Shown here piece by piece: positions 6,787 through 33,201 of a stretch of DNA of 48,197 nucleotides. The stretch comes from an uncultured Atopobiaceae bacterium (GTDB lineage: Bacteria; Actinomycetota; Coriobacteriia; Coriobacteriales; Atopobiaceae), in assembly GCA_947625405.1 (NCBI GenBank), contig CANQOF010000014.1, forward strand, positions 1-48,197, in the 5' to 3' direction. The first letter of the stretch is position 1, and the number at the start of each line of letters is the position of its first letter. Both the position numbers and the translations under genes were made by a program. The notes under the pieces were generated by a model, which saw only the letters and a program-made list of their open reading frames with translations, searched no databases and was not told where the DNA came from.

Positions 6787-7458
6787 CTAGATTTTGAAGA
6801 GGTAGCCGACGCCGCGGACAGTGATGATGTGGGAAGCCACCTGCGGGCCGACCTTCGAGCGCACGCGACGGATGTGCACGTCGACCGTGCGCGTGCCGCC
6901 GCAATACTCGAAACCCCACACGCGGTGCAGGAGCGCCTCGCGGGAATAGGCGCGGCTTGGGTGCGTGGCCAAAAACGACAGGAGCGAGTACTCCATCAGC
7001 GTGAGATCGACGGGCTTCTCGTCCACGAGCACTTGATAGGTGGCGAGGTTGATCGTCATGTTGTCGATGGAGACGAAGTCGTCGGCCGAAGTCTCCTCGC
7101 CCGGCCAGAGGAGGTGCGTGAGACGCGCCTCGAACTCCGCGTCGGAGGCGCTCACCACCATGAAGTCGGCTCGCGCCTTCACGGGCAGCGTGAGCGAGGC
7201 GAGGTCGTTCTCGGTGCAGATCACGAGCTCGGCGATCGCGTTTTCGTGCGCGTAGTCTTCGATGTCGCTCTGCGAGGCATCGTCGACGCTCGAAAGGTCG
7301 AGCACGACGAGATCGAAGTCGTGGCCCTGGCCGATGGCCTCGCGGAAGGCATCTGGATAGGCCAAGAGCGCCGAGACGTCGAGCGTCTTCGAGAGCGCGC
7401 GCATCTTGTCCTGCAGCGTGGCCGAACGGGAGATGAAGAGCACATTCTTGTGGTGCAT
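6787..7458 (-). CDS. Atypical OmpR-family response regulator, GlnR-like
   Basis: DNA-binding regulator of 223 residues. Residues about 125-223 form an OmpR/PhoB winged helix (LTLMEYSLLSFLATHP, REALLHRVWGFEYCGGTRTVDVHIRRVRSK, then VRGVGYLF). The N-terminal receiver-like half lacks the paired acidic residues expected after the first strand (NVLFISRSA), and only Asp54 could be a phosphoacceptor. No sensor kinase is adjacent. This layout, an orphan atypical receiver with a GGTRTVDVH wing, is shared with actinobacterial GlnR, the nitrogen regulator. The nearby glnA and phased GAAAC boxes support that reading, but other orphan OmpR-type regulators look similar, so the function is inferred. Confidence 0.75.
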   Translation of the reverse strand: MHHKNVLFISRSATLQDKMRALSKTLDVSALLAYPDAFREAIGQGHDFDLVVLDLSSVDDASQSDIEDYAHENAIAELVICTENDLASLTLPVKARADFMVVSASDAEFEARLTHLLWPGEETSADDFVSIDNMTINLATYQVLVDEKPVDLTLMEYSLLSFLATHPSRAYSREALLHRVWGFEYCGGTRTVDVHIRRVRSKVGPQVASHIITVRGVGYLFKI

Positions 7459-10113: not shown

Positions 10114-11052
10114 TTAGCTTGCGGAACCAAACCACTTGTTCTCAAGTTCGGTAAGAGTGCCGTCCTCTTGCAGCTCGGCCAGGGCCTTGTTCACGGCCTC
10201 GGTGAGGGCGGGGTTGTCCTTGGAGATCACGAGCCCGTACTGCTCGCCGGTGGGGATGGCGGCGACTACCTCGAGGTCGGCGTAGCTCTCCTGGCAGTAG
10301 TAGGCCATCACGGGATAGTCGGCGATGACGGCGTTGTAGAGGCCACTCTGGAGGCCGGTGAGGCACTGGATGGCGTCAGCCAGCGGCACGGTCTCGGCGT
10401 TCGTGAGATTCTCCTGGCTCCAAGCCTCGCCGGTGGTGCCGGACTGCACGGCCACCTTCACGCCGGCCACGTCGAGGACGGACTTCACGGCGTCGAGGCG
10501 CTCGGTGCCGGCCACGTCCTGGGAGGCGTCGAAGCCCGGGATCTCAGCCGCGGCGGCCTTCGTCATCACGATGCCCTGGTTGGAATCCATGTAGGAGTCG
10601 GAGAAGTCGATCTCCTCGAGGCGCTCGTCGGTGATGGTGAAGGAGGAGGCGCCCATGTCGACGGTGCCGCCCTGTTTCACGGCCGGGATGATGGTGTCGA
10701 ACTGCACCTGCTGCCACTCAACCGTGAGGCCGAGCTTCTCGGCGATGGCATTCACGAGGTCGACTTCGAAGCCCTCGGCGTCCTCGGAGGTCTTGCCCTC
10801 GGGCACGTACTCCATGGGCGCGTAGGCGAGGTCGGACTGGACGATGAGCTTGCCATCCTCGATGGTCTTGAGCTCGGTGACGGCGGGCTCCTCGGTTTGC
10901 GTCTCCTCTGTGGCGGCGGGCTCGGCGGCTTGGCCGCCGCAGCCGGCCATCACGGCCACGCAGAAGACGGCGAGCATGGAACAGAAGAGGGCAAGGAAGA
11001 GGTGCTTTGACTTCGGCTGGACACCGGCACCCTCGGTCGTGGACCACTTCAT
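10114..11052 (-). CDS. Amino acid-binding lipoprotein of the ABC importer
   Basis: Extracellular solute-binding protein, family 3, 312 residues. After a charged N terminus the hydrophobic helix ends in the lipobox VMAGC, making Cys38 the lipidation site. A Glu/Thr/Pro-rich linker follows, then the binding domain with VQSDLAYAPMEY, GFEVDLVNAIAEKLGL, DMGASSFTITDERL and the hinge segments VAVQSGTTGEAW and VISKDNPALTEAVNKAL. The ligand is probably a polar amino acid, which one is unknown. AAGGAGAACACC precedes the ATG at 11052. It is the first gene of the importer operon, followed by the palindrome at 10014-10093 and then the permease. Confidence 0.94.
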   Translation of the reverse strand: MKWSTTEGAGVQPKSKHLFLALFCSMLAVFCVAVMAGCGGQAAEPAATEETQTEEPAVTELKTIEDGKLIVQSDLAYAPMEYVPEGKTSEDAEGFEVDLVNAIAEKLGLTVEWQQVQFDTIIPAVKQGGTVDMGASSFTITDERLEEIDFSDSYMDSNQGIVMTKAAAAEIPGFDASQDVAGTERLDAVKSVLDVAGVKVAVQSGTTGEAWSQENLTNAETVPLADAIQCLTGLQSGLYNAVIADYPVMAYYCQESYADLEVVAAIPTGEQYGLVISKDNPALTEAVNKALAELQEDGTLTELENKWFGSAS

Positions 11053-15866: not shown

Positions 15867-18459
15867 ATTCACCGAGAAAGCGCGCAAGGCGATGTCCCTC
15901 GCCCAAACCGAGGCCCGAAACCTCGGCCAAAGCTTCGTGGGTACCGAGCATCTCCTGCTCGGCCTCATCAAGCAGGAAGACGGCATCGCCGCCCAAGCGC
16001 TCGCCCGTCTTGAGATCACCTACGACGAGACGCTCGCGTGCGTGAAGAGCCTCACCACCACCGAGCCCGAGGACGTGCCGGGGGGCCACATCCCCTTCAC
16101 CCCGAAGGCGAAGCACGTGCTCGAGGGCGCGTTCCGCGAGACGATCGCCCGTGGGCAGACCTATATCTCCACCGAGCACCTGCTCCTCGGCCTCGTGCGC
16201 GAGGGCAACGGCCGCGCCATGGAGGCGCTCTCCCGCATGGGCGTGTCCGGGGACGCCGTGCGCAATGCCGTGAACGAACTCATCGCCCAGACGCCCGAGG
16301 GCAGGGGCCAGGCGCGCCCGCAGAACCCGGCGACGGGCATGCCGCTCGGCGGCCCCGACATGATGGGCGGCAAGCAACAGCAGGACGGGAAGTCGCTGCT
16401 CTCCGAGTACGGGCGCAACCTCACCTCGCTTGCCGCCGAGGGCAAGCTCGATCCCGTGATCGGGCGCGATCTCGAGGTGGAGCGCGTGATGCAGGTGCTC
16501 GCCCGCCGCCAGAAGAACAACCCGCTCATCCTCGGAGACCCCGGGGTCGGCAAGACCGCCATCGCCGAGGGCCTCGCGCAGCTCATCGCCTCGGGCAACG
16601 TGCCCGAGGTCCTGCGCGGAAAGCAGATCTGGACGCTCGACGTGGCCGCCATCGTGGCCGGCTCGAAGTATCGCGGCGAGTTCGAGGAGCGCCTGAAGCG
16701 CGTGATCAACGAGGTCATGAACTCCGAGAACGACATGCTCTTCATCGACGAGATCCACACGCTCATAGGCGCGGGCTCCGCCGAGGGCTCGGTGGACGCC
16801 GCATCCATCCTGAAGCCGCCGCTCTCCCGTGGCGAGATCCAGGTGATCGGCGCCACGACGGCGGACGAGTACCGCAAGCACATCGAGAAGGATTCCGCCT
16901 TCGAGCGGCGCTTCCAGCCGATCAACATCGGCGAGCCCTCCGTGGCGGACACGATCGTCATCTTGAAGGGCCTCCAGGAGCGCTACGAGGCGCACCACCA
17001 CGTGCACTACACGCCCGAGGCCATCGAGCAGGCCGTGGTGCTCTCCTCGCGCTACATCCAGGATCGCTTCCTGCCCGATAAGGCCATCGACGTCATCGAC
17101 GAGGCGGGCGCCCGCACGCGCGTGCACAAGGTGATCGTCCCCGACGACATCCAAGCCATCGACTCCGAGCTCGAACGCGTGGGCGAGGAGAAGGCCCGTG
17201 CCGCGAGCGCGCAGGAGTTCGAGCTTGCCGCGCGTCTGCGCGACGAGGAGAAGGAGCTCACGGAGCGCCGCGCCGAGCTCGAGAAGAAGTGGCACGAGGA
17301 GATGGATTCCTCGGTGGTGGAGGTTTCCGCCGACGATATCGCCGACGTGGTGTCCTCCATCACGGGCGTGCCCGTCTCGAACCTCACCGAGGCCGAGACC
17401 TCGAAGCTCCTTCGCTGCGAGGAAGTGCTCCACGAGCGCGTGATCGGCCAGAACGAGGCCGTGAGCTCGGTGGCGCGCGCCATCCGTCGCTCGCGCTCGC
17501 CGCTCAAGGACCCAAGGCGCCCCGGTGGATCGTTCATCTTCCTCGGCCCCTCCGGAGTGGGAAAGACCGAGCTCGCAAAGAGCCTCGCGGAGTTCCTCTT
17601 CGGCTCCGAGGACGCGCTCATCACCTTCGACATGTCCGAGTACATGGAGAAGTTCAACGTCTCCAAGCTCGTGGGCGCGCCTCCGGGATACGTGGGCTAC
17701 GACGAGGGCGGCGAGCTCACGAAGGCCGTGCGCAGCAAGCCCTACTCCGTCGTGCTCTTCGACGAGATCGAGAAGGCGCACCCCGACGTCTTCAACGTGC
17801 TCCTGCAGATCCTCGACGAGGGTCGCCTCACCGACGGTCAGGGCCGCAAGGTGGACTTCTCGAACACCGTCATCATCATGACGTCGAACATCGGCGCCCG
17901 CGAGATCGCCACGACCGCGCCCATGGGCTTCGGCACGCAGGGCACGGAGGGCCTCTCGCACCAAGAGATCAAGAGCCGCGTGAACGGCGAGCTCAAGCGC
18001 GTGTTTAGGCCCGAATTCCTGAACCGCGTGGACGAGATCGTGGTCTTCACCTCGCTCGGCACGGAGGAGCTGAACCAGATCGTCGACCTCATGGTGGCCG
18101 ATCTTCGGGATCGCCTCATCGCCGAGGGCATGTCCATCGAGCTCACCGACGCCGCGCGCGCCAAGCTCATCAAAGACGGCACCGACACCGTCTACGGCGC
18201 GCGTCCCCTGCGCCGCGCCATCCAGACGCTCATCGAGGACCCGCTCGCCGAGCGGCTCCTGGGCGGCGAATGGGGCCCCGGCCATATCATCATGGTGGAC
18301 GCCGAGGACGACGAGCTTGTGTTCACGGGCAAGAAGGGCGAGATCCCGGCTCCGCGCACGCGCGAGACCATGGAGCGCCCGAGGGCTCGCGAGAGCTGGA
18401 CGGTGCCCGCCACGCCCCGCGGCGTGGCGCCCGCGCAGGACGTTTCCCAGGAAGGCTGA
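15856..18459 (+). CDS. clpC: ATP-dependent Clp protease ATP-binding subunit ClpC
   Basis: AAA+ unfoldase that feeds substrates to ClpP; 867 residues. Two Clp-N repeats occupy about 1-145. The first ATPase domain has Walker A GDPGVGKT (near 227) and Walker B LFIDEIH, followed by a UVR-like middle coiled coil ([19 protein letters not shown], near 455) typical of ClpC. The second has GPSGVGKTE (near 564) and [14 protein letters not shown], with the pore segment [14 protein letters not shown] 40-residue C-terminal tail is rich in Arg and Pro. AAGGAGGGA precedes the ATG. The CtsR and McsA/McsB genes that often accompany clpC in Firmicutes are absent here. Confidence 0.97.
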
Positions 18460-29566: not shown

Positions 29567-29745
29567 GGGGTGTGTTTCAGCTGCGTGGGGGCTCTATGTG
29601 CCACGATCATAGCGCGAGAGCGCGTCGCTGCGCCCTCGGATTTGGCGAGCTATCCCCCGCACGTCGATGCGGTAGACGTGGCGCCATTGCGCGCGCGTCC
29701 CCATCTCTCCTTGCGTCCCCGTGGCCTCGCCCTGCCGCGCGTGTG

Positions 29746-29927
29746 CTTGCGGTGTATTTCGTGCCACGTGGGGGCTTGGGGTGTAGCGAAAAGCGCCGCG
29801 GGTGCCCTTGCGGTGTAGGAAACGGGCGGGAATCGAGCGTTTTTGCCCCTTTCCGCTACACCGCAAGGGCATCCCCGCCATGAGATACACCCCAAGGCAA
29901 GCCGCGACGGCGTTGATACACCCCAAG
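29746..29927. repeat. Six-box symmetric array, left copy (CTTGSGGTGTA)
   Basis: 11-bp boxes CTTGSGGTGTA point right at 29746, 29775 and 29807, and point left (TACACCSCAAG) at 29857, 29886 and 29917. Spacings are 29, 32, 50, 29 and 31 bp, so the array is nearly mirror-symmetric around 29837. The centre can fold as a hairpin through CCCTTGCGGTGTAG and CTACACCGCAAGGG. The layout suggests multiple copies of one protein binding with a dyad. Confidence 0.85.
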
Positions 29928-30057
29928 GCGCCACGAGGCATCCCGGCAGCGTCGGCACCCTTCTTTGGCGCAGGGCACGTCGCGGTGCGGGAGCTCTGTA
30001 AGCGGCGGTGCGCGTGGGCGGACCACGAAAAAGGACCCGCCGGAGCGGGTCCTTGGA
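29761..30057 (+). repeat. 297-bp inverted repeat, left arm
   Basis: This segment is the reverse complement of 31613-31909 over 297 bp. I see one difference, GGAAACGGG here against GGAAAAGGG in the other copy. It contains five of the six boxes of the left array and, at its inner end, the terminator hairpin at 30028-30054. No transposase or recombinase is encoded within it. The remainder of the 29567-30098 gap holds no gene that I can support. Confidence 0.93.
30028..30054 (-). terminator. Outward-facing terminator, left arm
   Basis: AAGGACCCGC (30031-30040) pairs with GCGGGTCCTT (30045-30054). On the minus strand a run of T follows. It ends the transcript of the 107-residue gene at 30099. Confidence 0.85.
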
Positions 30058-30098
30058 GGGGGCGATTGAGGCTGCCGAAGCAGCCAGGCGGATGGCGC

Positions 30099-30422
30099 TT
30101 ACGCGGCGAGGAGCTCGAAGCGACGCCCGTCGGAATCGATCACGACGGGGGTGAGCTCGCCGCGCACGAGTTCGCTCGTGAGGAGCGCGTCGCGGCCGAA
30201 GCCGTCGGCGATGCGCTTCGATCCAAGGCCATCCAGGCGCGCGTCGAAACCACCGGGGAGCACGAACGTCCGCGCCTGCTCATCCTCGCCGAGGGGCTGC
30301 CATGAGCCATTCACGAGGTAGAGGTCGGTCGTGTGGTGGACGTTCTCGCCGTGCCAGTCGAGCTTCCAGCCGCGCATGGGGAGAACCGCATACGCGGACT
30401 CGGAGAACTTCTTCGTGTCCAT
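30099..30422 (-). CDS. Uncharacterised 107-residue protein
   Basis: No family was recognised. The protein has no signal peptide or membrane helix. It is moderately acidic and strand-rich looking, with WKLDWHGENVHHTTDLYLVNGSW, LPGGFDARLDGLG and LVRGELTPVVIDSDGRRFELL as notable segments. Start choice is secure: AAAGGAGACCGAG precedes the ATG and a good promoter lies at 30501-30529. It is transcribed outward, towards the left 297-bp repeat, and ends in the terminator inside that repeat. It is the only gene on this strand within the repeat-bounded segment. Confidence 0.75.
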   Translation of the reverse strand: MDTKKFSESAYAVLPMRGWKLDWHGENVHHTTDLYLVNGSWQPLGEDEQARTFVLPGGFDARLDGLGSKRIADGFGRDALLTSELVRGELTPVVIDSDGRRFELLAA

Positions 30423-30500
30423 CTCGGTCTCCTTTCTTTCTCCGGGAACGCGTGGGTGTCTTTCGTTTCGTGTGTGGGGTTCTGCGTTCCTTGCGTGCGC

Positions 30501-30529
30501 ATTCTATACCCACGATAGGACTAATTCAA
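30501..30529 (-). promoter_or_regulatory. Promoter of the 107-residue gene
   Basis: On the minus strand TTGAAT (30529-30524) and TAGAAT (30506-30501) are 17 bp apart, a near-consensus promoter. One arm of the 12-bp inverted repeat (30514-30525) lies in the spacer and touches the -35 box, so binding there would repress. Confidence 0.7.
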
Positions 30530-30596
30530 TATGAAGAAATTGTGAATGAACGATTAACTCGGATGATGTATGACTATGCATTTGATTAGTCCTATC
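30514..30596. promoter_or_regulatory. 12-bp inverted repeat, operator-like
   Basis: GATAGGACTAAT (30514-30525) and ATTAGTCCTATC (30585-30596) are perfect inverted copies, with partial similarity extending inward. They bound a strongly AT-rich stretch of about 60 bp in an otherwise GC-rich region. The 71-bp centre spacing could allow looping. Confidence 0.7.
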
Positions 30597-30609
30597 TCAT
30601 GCCACAAGA

Positions 30610-30710
30610 AAAGGTCGGGACGACGTCGTAGGCAAGGTTTAGAAACCTCTCGAGAGGTCTCCGGGAAAACCGCTGAACTGCGGTTGCCGTGGTGTCGTCC
30701 ATCGACCTTT
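30610..30710. ncRNA. Candidate cloverleaf-like structured RNA
   Basis: A 15-bp closing stem is formed by AAAGGTCG and GGACGAC (30610-30624) with GTCGTCC (30694-30700) and CGACCTTT (30703-30710), interrupted only by a 2-base bulge. Inside are AGGTT/AACCT (30635-30648), ACCTC/GAGGT (30645-30658) and AACCGC/GCGGTT (30668-30685). The first two inner hairpins share bases, so they exclude each other, as in a switch. The strand is unknown. It matches no RNA family I can name. Confidence 0.45.
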
Positions 30711-30808
30711 GTCTTGCTTATTCCTCTTCCGCCCCTCGTCCTTTCACCGCGCACGCCGCCACCACCGTTTGCCCACAATTCCCCGCAAGACGAGGGGATG
30801 GTCCCGCG

Positions 30809-30886
30809 ATGGGCGGCCAGGGCGAGGAGTTCGGTACGGCTGCCAACGGCCACCACCTCTTCGTGAACGGCGAGCAGGTGCTCTGA
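30809..30886 (+). CDS. Possible 25-residue small protein
   Basis: MGGQGEEF to the NGEQVL end, 25 residues, with CGAGGGG about 11 bp upstream and a terminator-like GC hairpin plus TTTT at about 30916-30942 downstream. No family recognised. It may equally be non-coding DNA. The rest of the 30423-30963 gap holds the promoter, operator and RNA candidate described separately. Confidence 0.25.
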   Translation: MGGQGEEFGTAANGHHLFVNGEQVL

Positions 30887-30963
30887 GCCGAAGCGGAGGT
30901 ATAGATTGGAGTCGTCGCCCGCCCGGGCGGCGGCTTTTATCGTTTTCAGCCAAAGGAGACGCC

Positions 30964-31305
30964 ATGCCCTTCATCAATCTCAAGACCACCGAATCGCTCG
31001 ACCAGGAGGCCAAGGATCGCCTTGCCTGCGAGTTCTGCCTTATCGCCCAGGATTGCCTCGGCAAGGGCGAAGCGTGGGTGATGTGCGGCTTCGAGCCCGA
31101 GGCGTCGCTGCGTTTCCGCGGCTCCGCCGATTCCATTTGCTATGTGGAGGTGAAGGCCTTCGGCTCGCTCTCCGCAAACGGCACGAACGCCATGACGGGG
31201 CGGCTCACCTCGCTACTCGCGGGAGAGTTCGGCATTTCGCCTGATCGCATCTACGTGTCGTACTTCGACACGCCCAACTGGGGCTGGAACGGCGGCAATT
31301 TCTAG
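30964..31305 (+). CDS. MIF-like / phenylpyruvate tautomerase family protein
   Basis: 113 residues of the tautomerase superfamily, in which the N-terminal proline exposed after Met removal is the catalytic base. MPFINLKTT opens the protein, giving Pro1. SICYVEVKAFG and the C-terminal YVSYFDTPNWGWNGGNF fit the MIF pattern (the YFDxxxxxWGWNG end is a hallmark of MIF-like proteins). AAAGGAGACGCC precedes the ATG. The substrate is unknown. It lies in the segment bounded by the 297-bp repeats, upstream of the YegP-family gene. Confidence 0.85.
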   Translation: MPFINLKTTESLDQEAKDRLACEFCLIAQDCLGKGEAWVMCGFEPEASLRFRGSADSICYVEVKAFGSLSANGTNAMTGRLTSLLAGEFGISPDRIYVSYFDTPNWGWNGGNF

Positions 31306-31404
31306 CTTTGGTTGAGTTGCGTCCGCTCGTCGGCATGCAGGCCGCGCGAGGTGCGGGACTGCCTACATTCGAGCCAAGGCTCTCCGACGCGAAAGGACGC
31401 ATCC

Positions 31405-31590
31405 ATGGGCAAGTTCGAGGTCTCCGTAAACGACAAGGGCGGCTACCACTTCGTCCTCAAGGCCACCAACGGCCAGGTGATCGCCACCTCGCAGGTGTAT
31501 CAGAGCAAGGGCTCCTGCCTCGACGGCATCGAGAGCGTGCGCAAGAACGCCCCCGAGGCTGAGGTTGTGGATCTCAGCGTGGACGAGTAG
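31405..31590 (+). CDS. YegP-family (DUF1508) small protein
   Basis: 61 residues. The single repeat GKFEVSVNDKGGYHFVLKA, NGQVIATSQVYQSKG and GIESVRKNAPEAEVVDLS is the full DUF1508/YegP unit, a small beta-alpha fold of unknown function. GAAAGGACGC precedes the ATG at 31405. It ends in the terminator that opens the right 297-bp repeat. Confidence 0.9.
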   Translation: MGKFEVSVNDKGGYHFVLKATNGQVIATSQVYQSKGSCLDGIESVRKNAPEAEVVDLSVDE

Positions 31591-31612
31591 TCGTTTCGCA
31601 CGCGCACGGAAC

Positions 31613-31909
31613 TCCAAGGACCCGCTCCGGCGGGTCCTTTTTCGTGGTCCGCCCACGCGCACCGCCGCTTACAGAGCTCCCGCACCGCGACGTGCCCTGC
31701 GCCAAAGAAGGGTGCCGACGCTGCCGGGATGCCTCGTGGCGCCTTGGGGTGTATCAACGCCGTCGCGGCTTGCCTTGGGGTGTATCTCATGGCGGGGATG
31801 CCCTTGCGGTGTAGCGGAAAGGGGCAAAAACGCTCGATTCCCGCCCTTTTCCTACACCGCAAGGGCACCCGCGGCGCTTTTCGCTACACCCCAAGCCCCC
31901 ACGTGGCAC
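31613..31909 (-). repeat. 297-bp inverted repeat, right arm
   Basis: Reverse complement of 29761-30057 with one mismatch seen. It lies between the YegP-family gene and the end of the MFS gene. Its array of boxes is annotated separately. Confidence 0.93.
31616..31642 (+). terminator. Outward-facing terminator, right arm
   Basis: AAGGACCCGC (31616-31625) pairs with GCGGGTCCTT (31630-31639), followed by TTT. It is the same hairpin as 30028-30054 in mirror orientation and ends the tautomerase/YegP transcript. Confidence 0.88.
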
Positions 31910-31924
31910 GGCGTACACCCCAAG
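31743..31924. repeat. Six-box symmetric array, right copy
   Basis: CTTGSGGTGTA boxes point right at 31743, 31774 and 31803 and left at 31853, 31885 and 31914. Spacings are 31, 29, 50, 32 and 29 bp, the mirror image of the left array. The outermost box (31914) lies outside the 297-bp identity but is kept, as is its left counterpart at 29746. Confidence 0.85.
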
Positions 31925-31929
31925 CCAGC

Positions 31930-33201
31930 CTATGGCAGGGGTGGAGTCTCGGCGCGCTTCCACACGCGGCGGCCAAAGAGGAGCGCGAGGGCGGTGATGG
32001 CGCTCGAGAGCACGCAGAACGCGAGCGCGATTGCGGGGATGAAGGCCTTGGAGATGGCGTCGATGAGGAGGCCGCCGAAAAACGCCGAGCCGGCCTTGCC
32101 GATGTCGGCGAAGAAGAAGAGCTCGCCATTGACGGCGCCCCAGTGCTCCTTCGGGGTCTTCTTCGCGATGAGGGCCTTGATGAGGGGCGAGGTGGTGCCC
32201 ACGGTGATGCCGTAGCCGATGGCGGCGAGGATGAGCGTCGCGAAGCTCGGCCAGAGCGCGAAGAAGACGAATCCGATGATCTCCACTGATTGCAGCGGCA
32301 AGAGCAGCCACGTCTTGTCGCTGTCGAAGACCTTCCCGCCGCCGAGGCGGCAGAGGAGCGTCGCGATCCCCGTGGCCACGAAGAACGCGGCGCCCACCTT
32401 GATGCCCGCGTACTTCGCGAAAATGAGGATGAAGGTTACGCAGAAGCCCTTGGGGATGCGTCGCGCGAGGGAGATCACCATGAAGGGGAGCGCCTCGGGA
32501 ATGAGGAAGGGCGCGACGAAGCGCTTGAGGGCGCTCTCCTTCGGGGCGGAGGGATCGCCGCCATCGGGCTTCGGGTTCGCGGCCACGGTGGCAAGCGAGT
32601 GCCGCTTCTTCTGTAGGAGCAGGATCGCGGCGATCGAGGCCACCATAAGGAGCGCGTAGAAGGCGTAGAACGCCTGGTAGCCGATGCCGTCGATGAGGCC
32701 GGTGGAGATGAGCGCGCCGAACATCGTGCCGAGCGAGGTGCCGGCGCCCTTGATGCCGAGGCGCTTCCCGAACTGCTTCTTCGAGGACGAACCGAGCACC
32801 GCCACCGTCATCACGTTCGTGGCGATGGCGAAGGCGCCGCCCTGGAGCACGCGCGCGAACATCGCCATGGCGAAGCCGTCCCAGATGGCGGGGAGCGCCA
32901 CTCCGACGAACATCACCGCAAGGCTCAAAAGCAGCACGCGGTAGTGCGAGAACCAGTCGGTGATCTGCCCGCCCACGAGGCGCATGACCATGCTCGAGAG
33001 CGTGAAGACCGCCACGAACGTGCCGCCGACCGCCGCCGAGTAGCCGACGGTGTCGTAGTAGTAGGGGATGCCCGTGTTCAGGCCCTGCATGTAGAGGTTC
33101 GTGAAGAACGTGACGAGCACGAGCACGGCAAGTGTCACGTTCTCCGCGCGCATCCCGCGCGGAGCCCGAGCGATCCTCTCCTCTTTCCGCTGCTCCCCCA
33201 T
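31930..33201 (-). CDS. Major facilitator superfamily transporter
   Basis: 423 residues, about 12 membrane helices in two halves joined by a cytosolic linker (KKRHSLATVAANPKPDGG). The loop after helix 2 shows GGQITDWFSHYR, a typical MFS motif A variant, and a RVLQGGAFAIATN segment follows. The substrate is not evident; the ALDH gene just upstream on the same strand hints at import or export of an aldehyde-related or aromatic compound. The start at 33201 is 9 bp after the ALDH stop; a start at 33153 (MRAENV) is also possible. The 3' end runs to 6 bp from the outermost box. Confidence 0.85.
   Translation of the reverse strand: MGEQRKEERIARAPRGMRAENVTLAVLVLVTFFTNLYMQGLNTGIPYYYDTVGYSAAVGGTFVAVFTLSSMVMRLVGGQITDWFSHYRVLLLSLAVMFVGVALPAIWDGFAMAMFARVLQGGAFAIATNVMTVAVLGSSSKKQFGKRLGIKGAGTSLGTMFGALISTGLIDGIGYQAFYAFYALLMVASIAAILLLQKKRHSLATVAANPKPDGGDPSAPKESALKRFVAPFLIPEALPFMVISLARRIPKGFCVTFILIFAKYAGIKVGAAFFVATGIATLLCRLGGGKVFDSDKTWLLLPLQSVEIIGFVFFALWPSFATLILAAIGYGITVGTTSPLIKALIAKKTPKEHWGAVNGELFFFADIGKAGSAFFGGLLIDAISKAFIPAIALAFCVLSSAITALALLFGRRVWKRAETPPLP

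Follow-up and report, generated by a model that had tools for sequence, protein, structure and literature searches.

Several families of short intergenic repeats, and several ways of inverting or exchanging the DNA next to them, have been described in bacteria. BOX elements of Streptococcus pneumoniae are modular, with distinct boxA and boxC ends and boxB between them (PMC3049150). Neisserial intergenic mosaic elements (NIME) are built around dRS3, a 20-bp palindrome-ended repeat, ATTCCC(N8)GGGAAT, that occurs about 700 times and flanks RS elements, and the mosaic elements have been proposed to promote rearrangement and DNA import (PMC3898611). REPIN/BIME sequences, associated with the Y1 transposase RAYT, are inverted short repeats dispersed between genes (PMC3116915). 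At the level of larger segments, invertons, which are flipped by site-specific recombinases (for example PsrA, PMC7096588), lie between inverted repeats and occur either way round. Minimal mobile elements, known from Neisseria, are blocks between conserved genes that are exchanged via flanking homology (PMC3898611). The locus analysed here shares features with each of these.

In the window, by which we mean the whole analysed stretch of 48,197 nucleotides from an uncultured Atopobiaceae bacterium of the gut, self-comparison revealed an inverted repeat of 329 bp with 96% identity (29730–30058 and 31612–31940). Its inner part, formed by a left arm at 29760–30058 on the forward strand and a right arm at 31612–31910 on the reverse strand, is 299 bp long and contains a single mismatch (C at 29823 versus 31847) that separates perfect matches of 63 and 235 bp, an identity far beyond chance. 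The inward end of each arm is a 24-bp palindrome, AAGGACCCGCCGGAGCGGGTCCTT (30031–30054 on the left and 31616–31639 on the right, neither assigned to a strand), followed on its outward side by TTTTTCG. Folding predicts a hairpin at this position, which is absent from the list produced by a consensus terminator scan, and the palindrome with its T run is likely the terminator of a gene inside the block. The arms are not unique DNA. When the arm was searched against its own genome, as the initial annotation had suggested, 40 matches were obtained, and the outer 180 bp proved to be a multicopy array that the annotation had missed. We refer to this repeat as a dyad array. The left array (29746–29927, forward strand) carries the box CTTGSGGTGTA in forward orientation at 29746, 29775 and 29807 and its reversed form, TACACCSCAAG, at 29857, 29886 and 29917, in steps of 29, 32, 50, 29 and 31 bp; the right array (31743–31924, reverse strand) is its mirror image.

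Between the arms lie three genes and a divergent promoter region. The first gene, DUF107 (30099–30422, reverse strand), encodes a 107-aa protein of no known family, without Pfam or NCBIfam matches; in the genomes searched it is confined to the genus, and a scan of genome contigs found it in three genomes, all of the genus. Its AlphaFold model, with a mean pLDDT of 50, was not used. The other two genes, both on the forward strand, encode a MIF-family tautomerase (30964–31305; PF01187, 1e-11), with a proline after the start methionine, and a YegP/DUF1508 protein (31405–31590; profile match 5e-23). Inside the promoter region, an operator-like 12-bp inverted repeat is formed by GATAGGACTAAT (30514–30525) and ATTAGTCCTATC (30585–30596), both given on the forward strand and also present in relatives. 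It is followed by a structured RNA candidate (30608–30712, candidate strand forward) with a folding z of -4.7, conserved across the genus. This candidate is single copy, was found only in the genus and was located in the block every time; changes on both sides that preserve the pair occur at 3 of its 39 pairs, and it has no Rfam match. In the predicted fold, a long closing stem bears three hairpins; the candidate is better conserved across the genus than the adjacent proteins. The RNA is not tied to the MIF gene, since other genes lie between the two in G005 and G002. In these two genomes a large secreted protein gene separates them (with a PF14262 match in G005), and only the tail of this carbohydrate-binding protein gene, at about 30800–30886 on the forward strand, is left in the window; judged by sequence comparison, the gene is deleted from the block in the window species. 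No recombinase-like gene was found among the block genes in the Pfam and NCBIfam annotation, nor was a transposase found inside. Much of what the initial annotation had read from the letters held up: near-identical inverted repeats, likely terminators at their inward ends, and a block with an unknown protein, MIF and YegP proteins, a putatively controlled promoter and an RNA candidate, but no recombinase.

We compared six genomes of one Atopobiaceae genus, G000 (the window genome) to G005, all draft assemblies and mostly or all metagenome-assembled genomes. In all six, DUF107 and MIF adjoin a YhgE/Pip pair, with MFS and ALDH genes on the opposite side, apart from G002, which has no MFS match and where ALDH is directly next; YegP had no match in G002 and G003. 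The block is single copy and occupies one place in all six species, including those without long arms, and by these comparisons it is a resident, genus-conserved module rather than mobile cargo. Its orientation differs: in two species, G000 and G005, DUF107 lies beside YhgE, and in the other four (G001–G004) it is found towards the MFS and ALDH genes. Because the block is interrupted by contig ends in G001, G004 and G005, orientation was read from each junction separately, and given the 235-bp exact repeat and short-read assembly, the orientation in G000 is less sure than those in G001 and G005. The contigs of G001 and G005, two different species, break at an identical DUF107 codon. Long inverted arms at the block are present only in G000, G001 and G005 and missing in G002, G003 and G004. 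The arms of G005 (498 bp, 94.6% identity) and G001 (369 bp, 89%) are built from boxes of a second family, arranged in the same way. In a four-protein tree with moderate support, the flipped species fall within the clade with long inverted arms; on this tree, the orientation designated B looks ancestral, and the history would comprise either two separate inversions or a single one that was later reversed.

The position of the crossover could be narrowed down by aligning both arms of G001 with both arms of G005. As far as column 486, the informative sites unite arms on the same flank; from column 538 onwards, they unite arms at the same end of the block. The exceptions are the single columns 321 and 544 and one further site that groups by species. 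The terminator sits between columns 486 and 538, so this switch in grouping places the crossover at the extreme inner end of the arm, at the terminator (in the window, the palindrome at 30031–30054). The earlier proposal that recombination between the arms would invert the segment without harming its genes is supported by these data, in that sister species differ in orientation with the breakpoint at the inner arm end, the harmlessness being our reading of the gene arrangement.

We consider it probable that the inverted arms are copies of a dispersed repeat, and that homologous recombination and gene conversion between them flip the resident block, with no need for a dedicated recombinase. Each arm would combine a dispersed intergenic dyad array with a palindrome that works as a bidirectional terminator, and the block would be a module that has internal promoters and is closed off by a terminator on either side. 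The terminators may have flanked the module first, with arrays later becoming established beside them in some species. Gene conversion between the flanks would then have made the arms alike, as suggested by the edges of arm identity in the window, which fall in shared sequence (the terminator on the inside and an array box on the outside). Recombination between the inverted arms or terminators would flip the module now and then; the flip is observed between species, and homologous recombination is the presumed agent. Such flips would be tolerated because transcription need not cross the module ends.

The repeat family to which the arms belong is sizeable. The box CTTGSGGTGTA occurs 71 times in the 1.72-Mb genome, compared with once for a reversed-pattern control. 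The 11-bp boxes, some forward and then some reversed, form some 17 to 18 arrays, found at about 16 loci besides the block and mostly between predicted genes, in which the number of boxes per side varies and the steps are strict (alternately 29 and 32 bp, with 50 bp at the centre, or 19 or 30 bp in a few). A second box family, CTTSSGCCGGT, with the same forward-then-reversed layout, is present in G001, G004 and G005, and a spacer motif, TTCGTGGCRCG, is common to the first family and the 29-bp unit of the second; from this shared sequence, the two families are probably related. The paired box was not found outside the genus among the family genomes searched (140 in all), and phage and plasmid records gave no match to the repeat family. 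One contig of a viral collection, the only such contig there, has a pair of boxes at 10332–10412. In an Rfam search only a tRNA elsewhere reached the gathering score, and sub-threshold matches were taken as chance; among the papers searched, none linked Atopobiaceae with such repeats. Two possible identities were set aside. As RNA-structure elements, the arrays are predicted to fold strongly (z about -5), yet the pairing observed in 16 distinct array cores equals that expected from column composition, without the compensatory changes of a structured RNA family. As REPINs, they would call for the Y1 transposase RAYT, which is missing from the genome (no PF01797 match, while control genomes gave the expected matches). 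Regarding MITE traits, array ends differ in box number, and the array-free site is too diverged for reading a target-site duplication. We read the dyad arrays as a new BOX/NIME-like repeat family.

The arrays might instead be binding platforms for a DNA-binding protein involved in chromosome organisation or regulation, with inversion as a side effect. That the boxes are conserved more than the spacers, that the steps are very regular and that array pairing shows no covariation beyond expectation would all fit such a role. It is nevertheless unlikely, though the least so of the alternatives weighed here, given that closely related species differ in whether an orthologous site has an array (the site upstream of a dinB-like gene has one in G000 and G004 but none in G001 and G005), that the two coexisting families differ in box sequence, and that steps of 29/32, 29/22 and 29/34 fail to keep one helical face.

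A site-specific inverton, in which the block serves as a switch and is flipped by a recombinase of the tyrosine or serine type, encoded elsewhere and acting on the boxes or the terminator palindrome, would account for the occurrence of both orientations, found here between species, and for a crossover at a short palindrome. Against this, the long arms differ between species and are drawn from two box families, the block holds no recombinase-like gene, and with all promoters inside, a flip switches nothing obvious. We regard this explanation as improbable, somewhat more so than the binding platform, and return to recombination between dispersed-repeat copies as the preferred account.

That account may extend to other array pairs in the genome. 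The most alike pairs are 98.4, 94.7 and 94.7% identical, the next being about 86%, and all three are physical neighbours (P about 3e-5, with 6 neighbour pairs among 153). Unlike the inverted pair of the window, the other two are direct repeats. On contig C10, the arrays (at about 6919–7131 and 18099–18311 within G000:C10:39000-58900; 94.7% identical, direct) bracket a complete CRISPR-Cas9 locus with cas9, cas1, cas2 and a CRISPR of 37 repeats with a period of 64. This locus has a lower G+C content. On contig C3, the arrays (at about 148–392 and 2698–2879 within G000:C3:1-12000; 94.7% identical, direct) bracket a BglII-family endonuclease and an MT-A70 methyltransferase. The SEC-C gene beside these restriction-modification (R-M) genes has an internal deletion relative to G004, where no R-M genes precede the SEC-C gene. 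At a further array, C6a, synteny with G001 and G004 is lost no more than about 2 bp from the outer box, and G000 lacks the gene that these two species have past the break. This break, like the variable array upstream of the dinB-like gene, speaks for the preferred account. A second local inversion, between G004:C78 and G000:C13, contains an array. Since arrays in direct orientation bracket foreign-looking CRISPR-Cas9 and BglII-type R-M segments, arrays in general probably act as portable homology where DNA is exchanged, inverted or gained. A stronger version, in which the dyad arrays serve an undescribed system as sites of recognition or exchange, and this system both spreads the arrays and uses them to swap, invert and import blocks, including whole defence modules, seems to us about as improbable as the inverton.

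Least credible of all is a mobile gene cassette or composite element, with the arms as ends and the MIF/YegP block as cargo moved between sites; the initial annotation had raised a cassette or mobile unit as a possibility. Foreign-looking DNA (CRISPR-Cas9 in one case, an R-M system in the other) does lie between two other near-identical array pairs, but the block is single copy, with the same genes in the same place in six of six species even where the long arms are missing (G002–G004), and no transposase was found inside. The annotation had proposed to abandon the cassette if the arms occurred singly, without pairing, and no strain showed gain, loss or inversion; the outer arm part does occur alone at many places, yet the segment is observed in inverted form, and three local pairs of arrays are almost identical.

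The novelty lies in the repeat family to which the arms belong and in its position at an inverting block and two defence modules. By comparing sister species, an inversion crossover at this natural locus could be placed within about 50 bp, and the locus is one at which inverted arms have stayed alike in several species despite arm sequences from different repeat families. Compared with BOX, the dyad arrays are likewise intergenic, interspersed and modular, with variable numbers of tandem units, mirror-like ends, tens of copies or more and hairpins that form on paper; however, they repeat a single 11-bp box, first in forward and then in reversed orientation with fixed 29/32-bp steps, have no distinct end modules and no composite boxA/boxB/boxC structure, and are unrelated in sequence as far as seen. 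With NIME and dRS3 they share short repeats in intergenic arrays, but they number only about 71 boxes in about 18 arrays, and their box sequences differ from the dRS3 form. From REPIN/BIME, which are likewise inverted short repeats dispersed between genes, they are set apart by n forward boxes followed by n reversed ones instead of alternating pairs, and by a genome with no Y1 transposase. Like a site-specific inverton, the block is flanked by inverted repeats and occurs either way round, but its arms are hundreds of base pairs long and vary between species, it contains no recombinase and no promoter is switched. If the direct pairs around CRISPR-Cas9 and the R-M genes mark the arrival of these modules, the arrays would offer a way into studying how gut Coriobacteriia exchange defence modules. 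The minimal mobile elements of Neisseria fit these C3 and C10 pairs, whereas the window locus departs from them in that its content is constant across species, gene loss apart.
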